Source of the DNA: Streptomyces mobaraensis
Lineage (GTDB): Bacteria > Actinomycetota > Actinomycetes > Streptomycetales > Streptomycetaceae
Length of the DNA stretch: 64,000 nt
Direction of reading: 5' to 3'
Assembly: GCF_020099395.1 (NCBI RefSeq)
Contig: NZ_CP083590.1
Location: forward strand, 5,704,001-5,768,000
This document shows positions 1,856-34,197 of this stretch, one piece after another. The position numbers were made by a program, and so were the translations under genes. The stretch's first letter is position 1. Each line of letters begins with the position of its first letter. The notes below the pieces were generated by a model that saw nothing but the letters and a program-made list of their open reading frames with translations, did no database searches and was not told the DNA's origin.

Positions 1856-1894
1856 GGGGGTCGGACAGCCGGGGCGGCGGCGGTGTGGCGGGGA

Positions 1895-1917
1895 TTGTCA
1901 GTGGGTCGTGGCAGGAT
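1895..1917 (+). promoter_or_regulatory. RecA-NDp/PafBC-type promoter of polA
   Basis: TTGTCAGTG (1895-1903), an 8-nt spacer, then CAGGAT (1912-1917). This fits the actinobacterial LexA-independent damage promoter TTGTCRGTG-N8-TAnnnT except for C in place of T at the first -10 position. The -10 ends 7 nt before the GTG at 1925, so the transcript would start at or next to the start codon. Confidence 0.65.
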
Positions 1918-1924
1918 CGGGGGC

Positions 1925-4777
1925 GTGGCAGCAAAGGCATCGAAATCACCGTCCGACGCGACCGAGCCGACCGGCCCCGAGGCCGTGGGGGGAGGTGCGG
2001 GAGGCCGTCCCCGCCTGCTCCTGATGGACGGGCACTCCATGGCCTACCGGGCGTTCTTCGCGCTGCCCGCGGAGAACTTCACGACCTCCGGCGGCCAGCC
2101 GACGAACGCGGTGTACGGCTTCGCGTCGATGCTCGCGAACACCCTGCGTGACGAGAGCCCCACGCACTTCGCGGTGGCGTTCGACGTGTCGCGCAAGACG
2201 TGGCGTTCCGAGGAGTACGCGGAGTACAAGGCGACCCGGTCCAAGACCCCCGACGAGTTCAAGGGGCAGGTGGAGCTGATCGGCGAGCTGCTGGACCACA
2301 TGCGGGTGCCCCGCTTCGCCGTCGACGGGTACGAGGCCGACGACGTCATCGCCACCCTGGCGGTCCAGGCCGAGGCCCAGGGCTTCGAGGTGTCGATCGT
2401 CACCGGCGACCGGGATTCGTTCCAGCTCGTCAGCGACGCCGTCACGGTGCTGTACCCGACCAAGGGCGTCTCGGAGCTGACGCGCTTCACGCCGGAGAAG
2501 GTCCAGGAGAAGTACGGCCTCTCGCCCGCGCAGTACCCGGACTTCGCGGCGCTGCGCGGCGACCCGTCCGACAATCTGCCGGGCATCCCGGGCGTCGGCG
2601 AGAAGACCGCCGCGAAGTGGATCAACCAGTTCGGTTCGTTCGCGGAGCTGGTGGAGCGGGCCGACGAGGTCAAGGGCAAGGCCGGGCAGAACCTGCGGGA
2701 GCACCTGGAGGCGGTCAAGCTCAACCGCCGCCTCACCGAGATGGTGCGCGACGTCGAGCTGTCGACGGGCCCGGAGGGCCTGGTGCGGGAGGCGTACGAC
2801 CTCAGCGCGCTCGGCGAGCTGCTGGACCGGCTGGAGATCCGCAACCGGAGCCTGCGCGACCGGCTGTGGGGCACGGACCCGGCCGCGGTCGTCGAGGAGG
2901 CGGCCGAGGAGCTGGAGATCGAGCTGGACGGCCGGATGCTGGGCCAGGGCGAGCTGGCCGGCTGGCTGGCCGACATCCCGGCGGACGTGCCGGCCGCCGT
3001 GGTCGCCGGCTACGACTGGAAGCTCGGCACGGGTGACGTCCACGAGGTGGCGCTGGCCCTGCCGGACGACCGAGCCTGCTGGTTCGTCCCGCAGGAGTTG
3101 TCCGAGGACGACGACCGGGCGTTCGCCGCCTGGCTCGCCGACGCGGACCGCCCCAAGGTGCTGCACATGGGCAAGCGCGTCGTCCGCGTCTTCGCCGAGC
3201 GCGGCTGGCGGGTCGAGGGCGTCACCATGGACACCGCCGTCGCCGCCTACCTGGACGAGCCGGGTTCCCGGCCGTTCGAGACGGACCCGCTCAACCGCCA
3301 CCGGCAGAAGCGGGCCGGCAAGGTCCGTTTCAACAAGGGCAAGCGCCAGCTCACCGAGCTGGAGGTGCTGGTCGAGGACAAGCTCGGCCGGACCCTCCCG
3401 CGCGTCGACCCCGACAAGGCCGAGGCCGGCCAGCAGGCGTTCGACTTCGACGGCACGGCCGACAAGGAAGCCGCCGAGAAGCTGATGGTCGAAGGCCGCG
3501 CGGTCCTCGACCTGGGTGTCTTCTACGAGCGGAAGCTCGCCGGGACGGGCGCGCTGGAGCTCATGCGCGACCTGGAGCTCCCGGTCGGCGACCTGCTCGT
3601 CGCCATGGAGCGCGAGGGCATCGCCGTCGACCGGGCCCGCCTGGAGCGGCTGTCCGAGGAGTACCTGGGCGAGATCGAGCAGGCCGTCGCCGAGGCGCAC
3701 CGCGCCGCCGGCCGCGAGTTCAACCTCTCCTCGCCCAAGCAGCTCCAGGAGATCCTCTTCGAGGAGCTCGGCCTGCCCAAGACCAAGAAGATCAAGACCG
3801 GTTACACCACCGACGCCGACGCGCTGGCCTGGCTCGCCGCCCAGACGGAGAACGAGCTGCCGGTCGTCCTGCTGCGCCACCGCGACCGGGCCAAGCTCAA
3901 GACGACCGTCGACGGCCTGATCAACAACCTGGCGGCGGACGGCCGGATCCACACCACCTTCAACCAGATGGTGGCCGCCACCGGCCGGCTCTCCTCCACC
4001 GATCCCAACCTGCAGAACATCCCGGTGCGCACCGGCGACGGCAGCCGCATCCGCCGCTGCTTCGTGGTCGGCGAGGGCTTCGAGTCGCTGATGACGGCCG
4101 ACTACAGCCAGATCGAACTGCGCGTCATGGCCCACCTGTCGGAGGACGAGGGCCTCATCGAGGCGTTCACCTCCGGCGAGGACCTGCACACCACGGTCGC
4201 CTCGCAGGTCTTCGGCGTGGCCAAGACCGACGTCGACCCGGAGATGCGCCGCAAGATCAAGGCCATGTCGTACGGGCTCGCCTACGGGCTGTCCGCGTTC
4301 GGCCTCTCGCAGCAGCTCGGGATCTCCCCGGGCGAGGCGGGCGGCCTGATGGACACCTACTTCGAGCGGTTCGGCGGGGTCCGCGACTACCTGCGCCGCG
4401 TCGTCGAGGAGGCCCGCGCCACCGGCTACACCGAGACCATGCTCGGCCGTCGCCGCTACCTGCCCGACCTCAACAGCGACAACCGCCAGCGGCGGGAGAT
4501 GGCGGAGCGGATGGCGCTCAACGCGCCCATCCAGGGCACCGCCGCCGACATCGTGAAGGTCGCCATGCTGCGGGTGGCCGAGGCCCTGGAGAAGGAGAAG
4601 CTCGCCACCCGGATGCTGCTCCAGGTGCACGACGAAATCGTGCTGGAGGTGGCCCCCGGCGAGCGGGAGAGGGTCGAGGAGCTGGTGCGCCGGGAGATGG
4701 CCGGGGCCGTGAGCCTGCGGGCCCCGCTCGACGTGTCGGTGGGCGTCGGCGGCGACTGGGAGTCCGCCGCCCACTGA
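1925..4777 (+). CDS. polA: DNA polymerase I
   Basis: This 950-residue enzyme fills gaps in excision repair and removes Okazaki primers. The 5'-nuclease domain begins at about residue 28 (LLLMDGHSMAYRAFFAL). The middle domain keeps the exonuclease fold but lacks the DEDD catalytic residues, so proofreading is probably absent, as in other actinobacterial Pol I. The polymerase domain has motif A (DYSQIELRVMAHLS, Asp726), the O helix (RRKIKAMSYGLAYG, from 775) and motif C (VHDE, 901-904). Residue 783 in the O helix is Tyr where E. coli Pol I has Phe762. An upstream in-frame GTG exists at 1883, but GTG 1925 is preferred because the promoter -10 ends 7 nt before it. The upstream GTG would lie 5' of the promoter. 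Confidence 0.97.
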   Translation: MAAKASKSPSDATEPTGPEAVGGGAGGRPRLLLMDGHSMAYRAFFALPAENFTTSGGQPTNAVYGFASMLANTLRDESPTHFAVAFDVSRKTWRSEEYAEYKATRSKTPDEFKGQVELIGELLDHMRVPRFAVDGYEADDVIATLAVQAEAQGFEVSIVTGDRDSFQLVSDAVTVLYPTKGVSELTRFTPEKVQEKYGLSPAQYPDFAALRGDPSDNLPGIPGVGEKTAAKWINQFGSFAELVERADEVKGKAGQNLREHLEAVKLNRRLTEMVRDVELSTGPEGLVREAYDLSALGELLDRLEIRNRSLRDRLWGTDPAAVVEEAAEELEIELDGRMLGQGELAGWLADIPADVPAAVVAGYDWKLGTGDVHEVALALPDDRACWFVPQELSEDDDRAFAAWLADADRPKVLHMGKRVVRVFAERGWRVEGVTMDTAVAAYLDEPGSRPFETDPLNRHRQKRAGKVRFNKGKRQLTELEVLVEDKLGRTLPRVDPDKAEAGQQAFDFDGTADKEAAEKLMVEGRAVLDLGVFYERKLAGTGALELMRDLELPVGDLLVAMEREGIAVDRARLERLSEEYLGEIEQAVAEAHRAAGREFNLSSPKQLQEILFEELGLPKTKKIKTGYTTDADALAWLAAQTENELPVVLLRHRDRAKLKTTVDGLINNLAADGRIHTTFNQMVAATGRLSSTDPNLQNIPVRTGDGSRIRRCFVVGEGFESLMTADYSQIELRVMAHLSEDEGLIEAFTSGEDLHTTVASQVFGVAKTDVDPEMRRKIKAMSYGLAYGLSAFGLSQQLGISPGEAGGLMDTYFERFGGVRDYLRRVVEEARATGYTETMLGRRRYLPDLNSDNRQRREMAERMALNAPIQGTAADIVKVAMLRVAEALEKEKLATRMLLQVHDEIVLEVAPGERERVEELVRREMAGAVSLRAPLDVSVGVGGDWESAAH

Positions 4778-15187: not shown

Positions 15188-16642
15188 TCAGACCAGCTGC
15201 CGTATCTCGCCCCGGACGCGGTAGAAGCCTCCGGAGGCCGGTGCCAGCGCGTCGACGACGTAGCGGGCGCCCGCCCGGCGGATGTGGCGCGGGAACTGGA
15301 CGTTCCAGGCGGGCTCGTAGCCCTCGGACACCACGTGCACGCGGAGTCGTCCCCCCTCCTGGACGCACTCGACCACGACGCCCGACGCCGGGACGGCCTC
15401 GACGGTGGCCACCGTGGTCGCCGGGGTGTACGTGGGCAGGGCGGCGGCCGACTTGATGTCGCGCGGCACCGGGACGGTGCCCGAGCGGGCGGCGGTGATC
15501 GCGGCGTCCGAGGCGTCCACGCACACCAGCGAGCCGTCGGAGGTGACCATGTACAGCCGCTCGTCCAGGTACTGCATGGACAGCGCCGAGCCGCTGCCGG
15601 TGCCGAGCTTCCACAGCCGGGTGCCGTCGGCGTCGAAGCAGTAGACGGACGAGGAGTTGTCACCGGCGAAGACGTAGCGGCCGCCGGGGGCGGTGGCGCA
15701 GGAGTACACGACCGCGTCGCAGCGGTAGGTCGCCTCGACGCGGCCCGTCGTCTTCGACAGCCGCTGCACGCTGCGCCGGGCGGTGCCGGCGTAGACGGAG
15801 CGGTCCTCCTGCCAGCCGAAGAGGACCGCTCCGTCGGTCGGGCTGTGCCAGAGCCGGCCGCCGCCGTCGGGGGCGTAGGCGGTCACGCCTTCGGAGTGGC
15901 CGTGGTAGACGGCGTGCGCGTCCCGGCGGACCATCCACGCGTGGTTGCCGTCGCTCCGGCGCGACCACTGGTGCTCGTCCTCGTGGTCGATGACGGTCAG
16001 ACCGCCGTCCCGGTCGGCCACGTTGAGCACGCCCTCGTGGATGTCCAGCCAGAAGATGTCGACGGAGGGCGTGACCTCGTAGGCCGCGAAGGGCAGCTTG
16101 GACGACAGGTCGTAGACGGTGCCGTCGTCGCACCCGGCGTAGATCCAGAAGTCGTCCGCGACCAGGCACTTGACGCCGTCCGGCAGCTTGTAGCGGGCGA
16201 GGACCTCGCCACCGTGGCCGAGGGTGAAGACGTCGCCGGCCTGGTTGCCGACCCAGCAGCGGTCCTCGTCGACGTGGATGCCGAAGGCCGCGGCGCCCGT
16301 GCGGAAGCGCCACAGCACCGGGGCGACCGCGCGGGCGGTCGAGGGCGCCGAGGAGACCTGACGGCGCGTCACCGATCGGGCGGCCCGGCCGCCCGGCACG
16401 GCCGGCGCGTAGCCCTTGCGGACCTTCTCCCCGACCTTCTTCGCGGCGGCGGCCCGGGCCTTGTCCTCGGTGGCGAAGGACGAGGTCTGCACCTGGCCCG
16501 CCGCACCGATCCGGCCGTAGCGGACGGTGACGGTCGTGCCGTCCACCGTCACCTCGTAGAACTTGTGCGCGCCGGCGCCCTCCTGCGAGAGCTCCAGGTA
16601 GGTGCGCTCGGACGCGCCGGACGCGGACGGTGTGACGGACAT
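15188..16642 (-). CDS. WGR-domain protein with beta-propeller-like C-terminal region
   Basis: The protein has 484 residues. Residues 14-80 form a WGR domain (TYLELSQEGAGAHKFYEVTVDGTTVTVRYGRIG, with YGRIG replacing WGRIG). This fold binds nucleic acid next to the catalytic domain of PARPs. The rest (about 105-445) consists of repeated four-strand blades, for example FGIHVDEDRCWVGNQAGDVFTLG and YVFAGDNSSSVYCFDADGTRLWKLG, typical of PQQ/WD-like propellers. No signal peptide, PARP domain or other catalytic domain is present. ATG 16642 has a GAAGGGGG ribosome site. The promoter at 16694-16716 matches the RecA-NDp/PafBC damage promoter fully. Inference: a damage-induced DNA-binding scaffold. The biochemical role is unknown. 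Confidence 0.85.
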   Translation of the reverse strand: MSVTPSASGASERTYLELSQEGAGAHKFYEVTVDGTTVTVRYGRIGAAGQVQTSSFATEDKARAAAAKKVGEKVRKGYAPAVPGGRAARSVTRRQVSSAPSTARAVAPVLWRFRTGAAAFGIHVDEDRCWVGNQAGDVFTLGHGGEVLARYKLPDGVKCLVADDFWIYAGCDDGTVYDLSSKLPFAAYEVTPSVDIFWLDIHEGVLNVADRDGGLTVIDHEDEHQWSRRSDGNHAWMVRRDAHAVYHGHSEGVTAYAPDGGGRLWHSPTDGAVLFGWQEDRSVYAGTARRSVQRLSKTTGRVEATYRCDAVVYSCATAPGGRYVFAGDNSSSVYCFDADGTRLWKLGTGSGSALSMQYLDERLYMVTSDGSLVCVDASDAAITAARSGTVPVPRDIKSAAALPTYTPATTVATVEAVPASGVVVECVQEGGRLRVHVVSEGYEPAWNVQFPRHIRRAGARYVVDALAPASGGFYRVRGEIRQLV

Positions 16643-16693
16643 GGCAGGCCCCCTTCCCCGGCGGCCCCGGACGGCCGCCCTTCACTGCCCGGA

Positions 16694-16716
16694 ACGTTAG
16701 GGGGTGCCACTGACAA
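16694..16716 (-). promoter_or_regulatory. RecA-NDp/PafBC-type promoter of the WGR-domain gene
   Basis: Read on the minus strand: TTGTCAGTG (16716-16708), an 8-nt spacer, TAACGT (16699-16694). This is a full match to TTGTCRGTG-N8-TAnnnT. The predicted start near 16687 gives a 45-nt leader with its own ribosome site. Confidence 0.7.
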
Positions 16717-17894: not shown

Positions 17895-17917
17895 TTGTCA
17901 GTGGCAGGTCGTACGGT
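17895..17917 (+). promoter_or_regulatory. RecA-NDp/PafBC-type promoter of uvrB
   Basis: TTGTCAGTG (17895-17903), an 8-nt spacer, TACGGT (17912-17917). This is a full match to the damage promoter. The -10 ends 6 nt before the uvrB ATG, so the mRNA should be leaderless. Confidence 0.75.
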
Positions 17918-34174: not shown

Positions 34175-34197
34175 TTGTCAGTGCCCGCAAGTAGGGT
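34175..34197 (+). promoter_or_regulatory. RecA-NDp/PafBC-type promoter of uvrC
   Basis: TTGTCAGTG (34175-34183), an 8-nt spacer, TAGGGT (34192-34197), a full match. The ATG at 34205 lies 7 nt after the -10, again implying a leaderless mRNA. Confidence 0.75.

Follow-up and report, generated by a model that had tools for sequence, protein, structure and literature searches.

The 64,000-nucleotide stretch of Streptomyces mobaraensis analyzed here (contig NZ_CP083590.1, positions 5,704,001 to 5,768,000; hereafter the window) encodes on its minus strand a protein that joins a WGR domain, a beta-propeller and a small C-terminal module, and this WGR gene lies behind a RecA-NDp/PafBC-type promoter element that is conserved in Streptomyces orthologues and shared with DNA repair genes of the same genome. 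The promoter, its conservation, the shared regulon motif and the architecture of the protein were all read from sequence. On this basis, damage-inducible regulation via PafBC in Streptomyces is very probable, and we hold with moderate confidence that the WGR gene genuinely belongs to the PafBC (RecA-NDp) regulon and that its product is a damage-induced adaptor. The degrees of confidence given throughout apply to Streptomyces; PafBC control of the WGR gene beyond that genus is less certain. If this reading is true, the main DNA-damage regulon of actinomycetes gains a conserved, so far uncharacterised protein that carries a PARP-type domain, and DNA repair in Streptomyces and relatives probably includes the WGR-propeller protein as a damage-induced component that has been overlooked.

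Promoter of the WGR gene and its conservation

The first-pass annotation had claimed a minus-strand TTGTCAGTG-N8-TAACGT upstream of the WGR gene and the same element at uvrB and uvrC. All three were present in the window as follows, the first two entries by direct reading.

16694–16716, minus strand: RecA-NDp/PafBC-type promoter, with TTGTCAGTG at 16716–16708, the N8 spacer at 16707–16700 and the −10 element TAACGT at 16699–16694
16643–16693, minus strand: 51-base stretch from the promoter element to the ATG, with the ribosome-binding-site-like stretch GGGGAAGGGGG
17895–17917, plus strand: same promoter element, 5′ of uvrB, with −10 TACGGT
34175–34197, plus strand: same promoter element, 5′ of uvrC, with −10 TAGGGT

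The ATG of the WGR gene is at 16642, leaving a gap of 51 bases to the element. Exact TTGTCAGTG-N8-TA occurred three times in the window, at these three genes only. With up to two mismatches allowed there were four matches against 2.22 expected, a total that chance explains, and the window alone is therefore weak evidence for the element.

Conservation was examined in a main sample of the best 80 of 322 relatives found, 79 of them titled Streptomyces. The exact motif was present within 250 bases upstream of 67/80 orthologues; 12 of the remaining 13 differed at the first T only, and one (L106) at the ninth base. A check set beforehand on whether the motif is found upstream of orthologues thus showed it conserved in Streptomyces, with 80/80 loci at no more than one mismatch. 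Aligned columns for TGTCAGT, TA and the T of TAnnnT were invariant across the 80 loci (1.45–2.89 bits), spacer columns carried 0.02–1.02 bits, and the bases immediately before and after the element carried 1.25 and 1.14 bits. None of ten shuffled cores matched at any of the 80 loci, and exact matches elsewhere in these loci numbered 28 in 1,746,116 strand-bases. The element was also kept at 16/16 additional loci from an even draw of genomes (13 exact, three with one mismatch) and at 26/26 new loci from the 30 best of 45 matches (19 exact, seven with one mismatch), two sets whose species overlap in part with the main sample. Gene neighborhood was rejected as the cause of this conservation: uvrB lay within the examined flank of the WGR gene at only 22/80 loci, so the promoter follows the WGR gene and not its surroundings. 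A total of 50 loci for which 5 kb upstream was examined had no uvrB.

The 5′ leader was examined for further elements. A conserved leader hairpin had no support against dinucleotide shuffles (mean z −0.27 over 92 leaders) and was left unproven; 13% of leaders had z below −1, compared with 15% among 95 stretches lying 5′ of the motif. Many leaders were foldable through GC-rich inverted repeats between promoter and start codon (L031-L127), which were not significant against the shuffles. When 30 of the 67 distinct leaders were aligned, 3/8 predicted pairs showed a change at both positions with the pairing kept. A second CAGTG past the −10 was present in 31/95 Streptomyces leaders. An SOS-box pattern was found at 0/78 loci of the main sample (two of the 80 had no ORF reference), and it also found none near recA, leaving the search without a positive control and thus uninformative.

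The WGR-propeller gene was present in 45/121 Streptomyces genomes, one of which matched over residues 5–447 only. Class-wide, 34/394 genomes matched, comprising 17 Streptomyces (S. mobaraensis included), 13 of other genera and four partial matches, with one match per listed genome with a hit. The 13 full-length orthologues of other genera had 63–67% identity; the protein names among the matches suggest that they are from Nocardia and Streptosporangiales-type genera. The family reaches other actinomycetes and cyanobacteria. The first-pass annotation had placed the protein in streptomycetes, where it does occur, but it is neither genus-wide nor limited to the genus.

Several observations count against our reading, of which the replaced tryptophan of the WGR domain is taken up below and the others concern the 13 orthologues of other genera. 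The strict motif was exact upstream of 0/13 of them. In the same 13 genomes recA kept the GTG in 10/13 cases and the WGR gene in 1/13, which points to a weaker or altered WGR site outside Streptomyces. On the supporting side, a looser TGTC-N12-TA-N3-T, relaxed after the sequences had been seen, was present at all 13, at −137 to −55, and was found elsewhere in those loci 0 times in 114,996 strand-bases. In one of these genomes (G180; loci L138 and L199), recA and the WGR gene both carried the variant TGTCACCG-N8-TAG, as expected if the site of one regulator drifted in both, which hints at a PafBC site that has shifted in that lineage.

The patchy distribution would also fit a mobile accessory defence factor, a relocating cassette to which the damage promoter would signal phage or stress. 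Besides its presence in 45/121 genomes, the gene has variable neighbors (the 22/80 figure for uvrB) and the protein a weak match to PADLOC WGR_XIII (15.6 bits, E 0.0011). We consider this explanation improbable, as neither an effector nor a nuclease domain is among the Pfam matches of the protein, the listed genomes with a hit have a single match each, sequence conservation is strong, and the three scanned genes near the window copy (DUF6343, GDPD and uvrB) are not defence genes.

Genome-wide sites and the PafBC regulon

The pattern TTGTCRGTG-N8-TA matched 36 sites in the 7.67 Mb genome and none when read backwards, and this whole-genome count is strong evidence for the element. TAnnnT was also fitted by 33/36 sites. 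For each site a script picked as the downstream gene the longest open reading frame (ORF) with high third-position GC (GC3) starting no more than 500 bases away; for 33/36 picks the distance from motif start to ORF start was 21–117 bases, and for 17 of these it was 29–31 bases, compared with 74 bases for the WGR gene. A Pfam scan covered 34/36 picks plus the WGR protein and left out the 57-residue pick at L023. Thirteen repair or replication proteins were among the scanned picks: RecA, two UvrD-type helicases, an ATPase that we take to be RadA-like, DnaX, DnaB, an AlkZ-like glycosylase, UvrB, UvrC, an RNase_T exonuclease, RuvC, MgsA/RarA and a uracil-DNA glycosylase (UDG, ung). The remaining picks were transporters, a kinase and short unknown proteins, and some of these sites are likely chance.

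The genome also encodes PafB and PafC, as two adjacent WYL+WCX proteins with HTH_PafC on the second, at a locus that also holds PafA (Pup_ligase) and a proteasome subunit. The promoter type assigned by the first-pass annotation therefore stands, on an element of RecA-NDp/PafBC form that is common to repair genes, occurs in a genome with PafB and PafC, and is kept in Streptomyces orthologues.

One pick (L146, C1:7502601), an ORF behind the same promoter element, is the orthologue of SCO6735 (PDB 5e3b, E 4.4e-74), 5E3B being identified as the SCO6735 structure from a literature passage. SCO6735 is reported to have a RecA-NDp promoter that is conserved, to go up 5-fold on ultraviolet (UV) irradiation, with no sensitivity to UV or methyl methanesulfonate on deletion (PMC5087735), and to take ADP-ribose off DNA (PMC9411070). 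Within the site set, its orthologue comes closest to a positive control with experimental backing. Since it and the WGR gene lie behind the same promoter, an enzyme of ADP-ribosylation and a WGR domain of PARP type would be together in one regulon.

Across the genus, TTGTCRGTG-N8-TAnnnT was present in 41/41 Streptomyces genomes searched, with 11–44 sites each, while the control pattern matched once or not at all in each genome. At the level of the genus, not of S. venezuelae itself, this disagrees with the remark that an initial search suggested the Mycobacterium smegmatis motif was not conserved in S. venezuelae (PMC9380542), and it places the PafBC promoter class in a genus for which that remark had not settled whether the class exists. 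The promoter class was already known in Streptomyces before this analysis (PMC2375139, PMC9411070, PMC5087735): a TTGTCAGTGGC-N6-TAGggT motif was traced to recA of S. rimosus, and 67 S. coelicolor genes were reported with such motifs (PMC2375139).

It is very improbable that the element is an ordinary housekeeping promoter without damage control, in which TTGTCA looks like a −35 box by chance. TTGTCA does resemble a −35 box, but the kept bases extend into the GTG and the N8 spacer is constant, the same string stands 5′ of recA, uvrB, uvrC and the orthologue of the UV-inducible SCO6735, and control matches did not exceed one per genome.

Two further observations concern the reach of the element. 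At four sites in the S. mobaraensis genome (L009, L013, L019 and L029) it starts 29–31 bases before the start codon of genes for an ABC transporter, a DUF7691 protein, a transpeptidase and a glyoxalase-like protein; these have no known repair role and may be overlooked regulon members. On the plus strand of the window, TTGTCAGTGGGTCGTGGCA at 1895–1913 is one mismatch from the element and lies at the 5′ end of ORF 1883–4777, read by eye as polA, which may share PafBC-type control from a shifted −10.

Architecture and predicted role of the WGR-propeller protein

15188–16642, minus strand: WGR-propeller-C-terminal-module protein, 484 residues (ORF, Pfam and AlphaFold2)
16400–16606, minus strand: WGR domain, residues 13–81, with Y-G-R in place of W-G-R (Pfam PF05406)
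15515–16318, minus strand: seven-bladed beta-propeller, residues 109–376
15191–15385, minus strand: small basic C-terminal module, residues 420–484, without a Pfam family

Pfam placed the WGR domain well above its cut-off (PF05406, E 1.7e-18, 66.9 bits against 22) and matched the propeller region to PQQ_2 (42.4 bits against 27.6). The AlphaFold2 model (mean predicted local distance difference test score, pLDDT, 90.1; predicted template modeling score, pTM, 0.81) resolved 28 strands at residues 109–376 into seven four-stranded blades. At E up to 1, Pfam matched neither a PARP catalytic domain nor a vWA domain in the protein. The description first given, of a 484-residue protein with a WGR domain and a propeller and without a catalytic domain, is thus borne out by Pfam and AlphaFold2 together. 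Isoelectric points were 10.3 for residues 1–105, 5.2 for 109–400 and 9.1 for 401–484.

The first-pass annotation also tied the WGR domain to DNA breaks. The domain belongs to the same Pfam family as the WGR of PARPs, but the namesake tryptophan, which touches the DNA end in PARPs (PMC6135609, PMC4081085), is replaced. Its position is Tyr42 here and Tyr in 31/31 members of a first alignment; across 66 aligned family members it was Tyr in 62, Phe in four and Trp in none.

The C-terminal module had no single prominent match in fold comparison. The matches were weak, and many of them we take to be OB folds, so that the module looks weakly OB-like. Its profile found one copy in the S. mobaraensis genome and, with up to 20 candidates scored in each of 296 genomes of the phylum, hits in six, all at the WGR-propeller gene. 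This unnamed module of about 65 residues ends WGR-propellers as a single copy and ends cyanobacterial vWA-type proteins (P0250, P0263 and P0244) as two tandem copies.

We propose the following sequence of events. DNA damage would generate single-stranded DNA that activates PafBC, as known from mycobacteria and as the promoter and the presence of PafB and PafC suggest here; the described mechanism involves single-stranded DNA in the WYL domains, sigma adaptation and a −26 element (PMC11804915). Activated PafBC would redirect the housekeeping RNA polymerase to the WGR promoter and raise expression, which predicts induction in S. mobaraensis. The product is probably non-enzymatic and modular, without a known catalytic domain. 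Its basic WGR end and its basic, weakly OB-like C-terminal module probably contact nucleic acid, the acidic propeller in the middle would hold a protein partner, and the damage-induced adaptor would bring that partner to damaged DNA. A nucleic-acid-associated adaptor fits the protein anatomy best; we put the chances of this role, or of a DNA-associated scaffold, as evenly balanced. WGR proteins have precedents in damage regulons (PMC8533742), namely MolR in Escherichia coli and Deinococcus DR2173, whose WGR domain is N-terminal and which goes up strongly on DdrO depletion. A bolder extension, for which we see little likelihood, is a break-reader without a writer: the WGR domain and OB-like module would clamp damaged DNA and the propeller would recruit partners, possibly with the co-regulated SCO6735 orthologue in an actinobacterial repair pathway linked to ADP-ribosylation. 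The C-terminal module would then represent a domain not yet described that binds nucleic acid or a partner.

The anatomy could also be that of a damage-inducible hub for protein-protein contacts, such as an adaptor in protein quality or signaling, with the WGR and C-terminal modules binding proteins and not nucleic acid. The replaced tryptophan fits this, as do the propeller, which is WD40-like and the largest part of the protein, and a C-terminal module common to vWA proteins, vWA being usually a protein-interaction domain. Against it stand the basic charge of both ends, the DNA contact of WGR in PARPs and a regulon rich in repair genes, and we consider such a hub unlikely. Several homologues carry source names for a molybdenum metabolism regulator, a name probably derived from the WGR domain of MolR. 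Neither a molybdate-related Pfam or NCBIfam match at E up to 1 nor a molybdate gene among the Pfam-scanned regulon picks was found, and the likelihood of this function is close to negligible.

Comparison with known systems

In the literature searched, no paper was found on a WGR-propeller protein or joining ‘WGR domain’, ‘bacteria’ and ‘beta-propeller’; the 67-gene S. coelicolor list in the supplement of PMC2375139 may still name the gene. As far as the literature searched shows, the WGR gene as a conserved regulon member, the three-part architecture and the module common with vWA proteins are new.

Among propeller proteins, MoxR-vWA conflict systems (PMC7159879) share a beta-propeller and, in cyanobacteria, the vWA link through the C-terminal module, but the WGR-propeller protein has no vWA match and WGR is nowhere in the main text of that paper. 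BamB/PQQ and WD40 propellers share fold and repeat family. The protein scored 39.7 bits to BamB, an envelope lipoprotein, below the equivalog cut-off of 285.2 (TIGR03300).

Among WGR proteins, those of the MolR/DR2173 type share the N-terminal WGR domain and are reported under LexA or DdrO control (PMC8533742). The WGR-propeller protein has no DUF4132 match. The WGR domains of PARP-1/2/3 are of the same Pfam family, and phmmer aligned PARP-3 weakly (E 0.69) across the YGRIG/WGRVG motif, but the WGR-propeller protein has Tyr or Phe for Trp and a propeller in place of a catalytic match.

By regulation, the protein resembles SCO6735, a UV-inducible DNA-ADP-ribose hydrolase that, unlike it, is an enzyme with a macrodomain fold; the promoter type is the same and the SCO6735 orthologue is in the same site set. 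The closest system is the RecA-NDp/PafBC regulon itself, as known from the S. rimosus recA promoter and mycobacterial PafBC. The WGR gene is not a described member in the literature consulted, and its motif lies further from the start codon than the 29–31 bases of 17/36 picks, but motif, spacing and −10 agree, PafB and PafC are encoded, and recA, uvrB and uvrC stand behind the same element.
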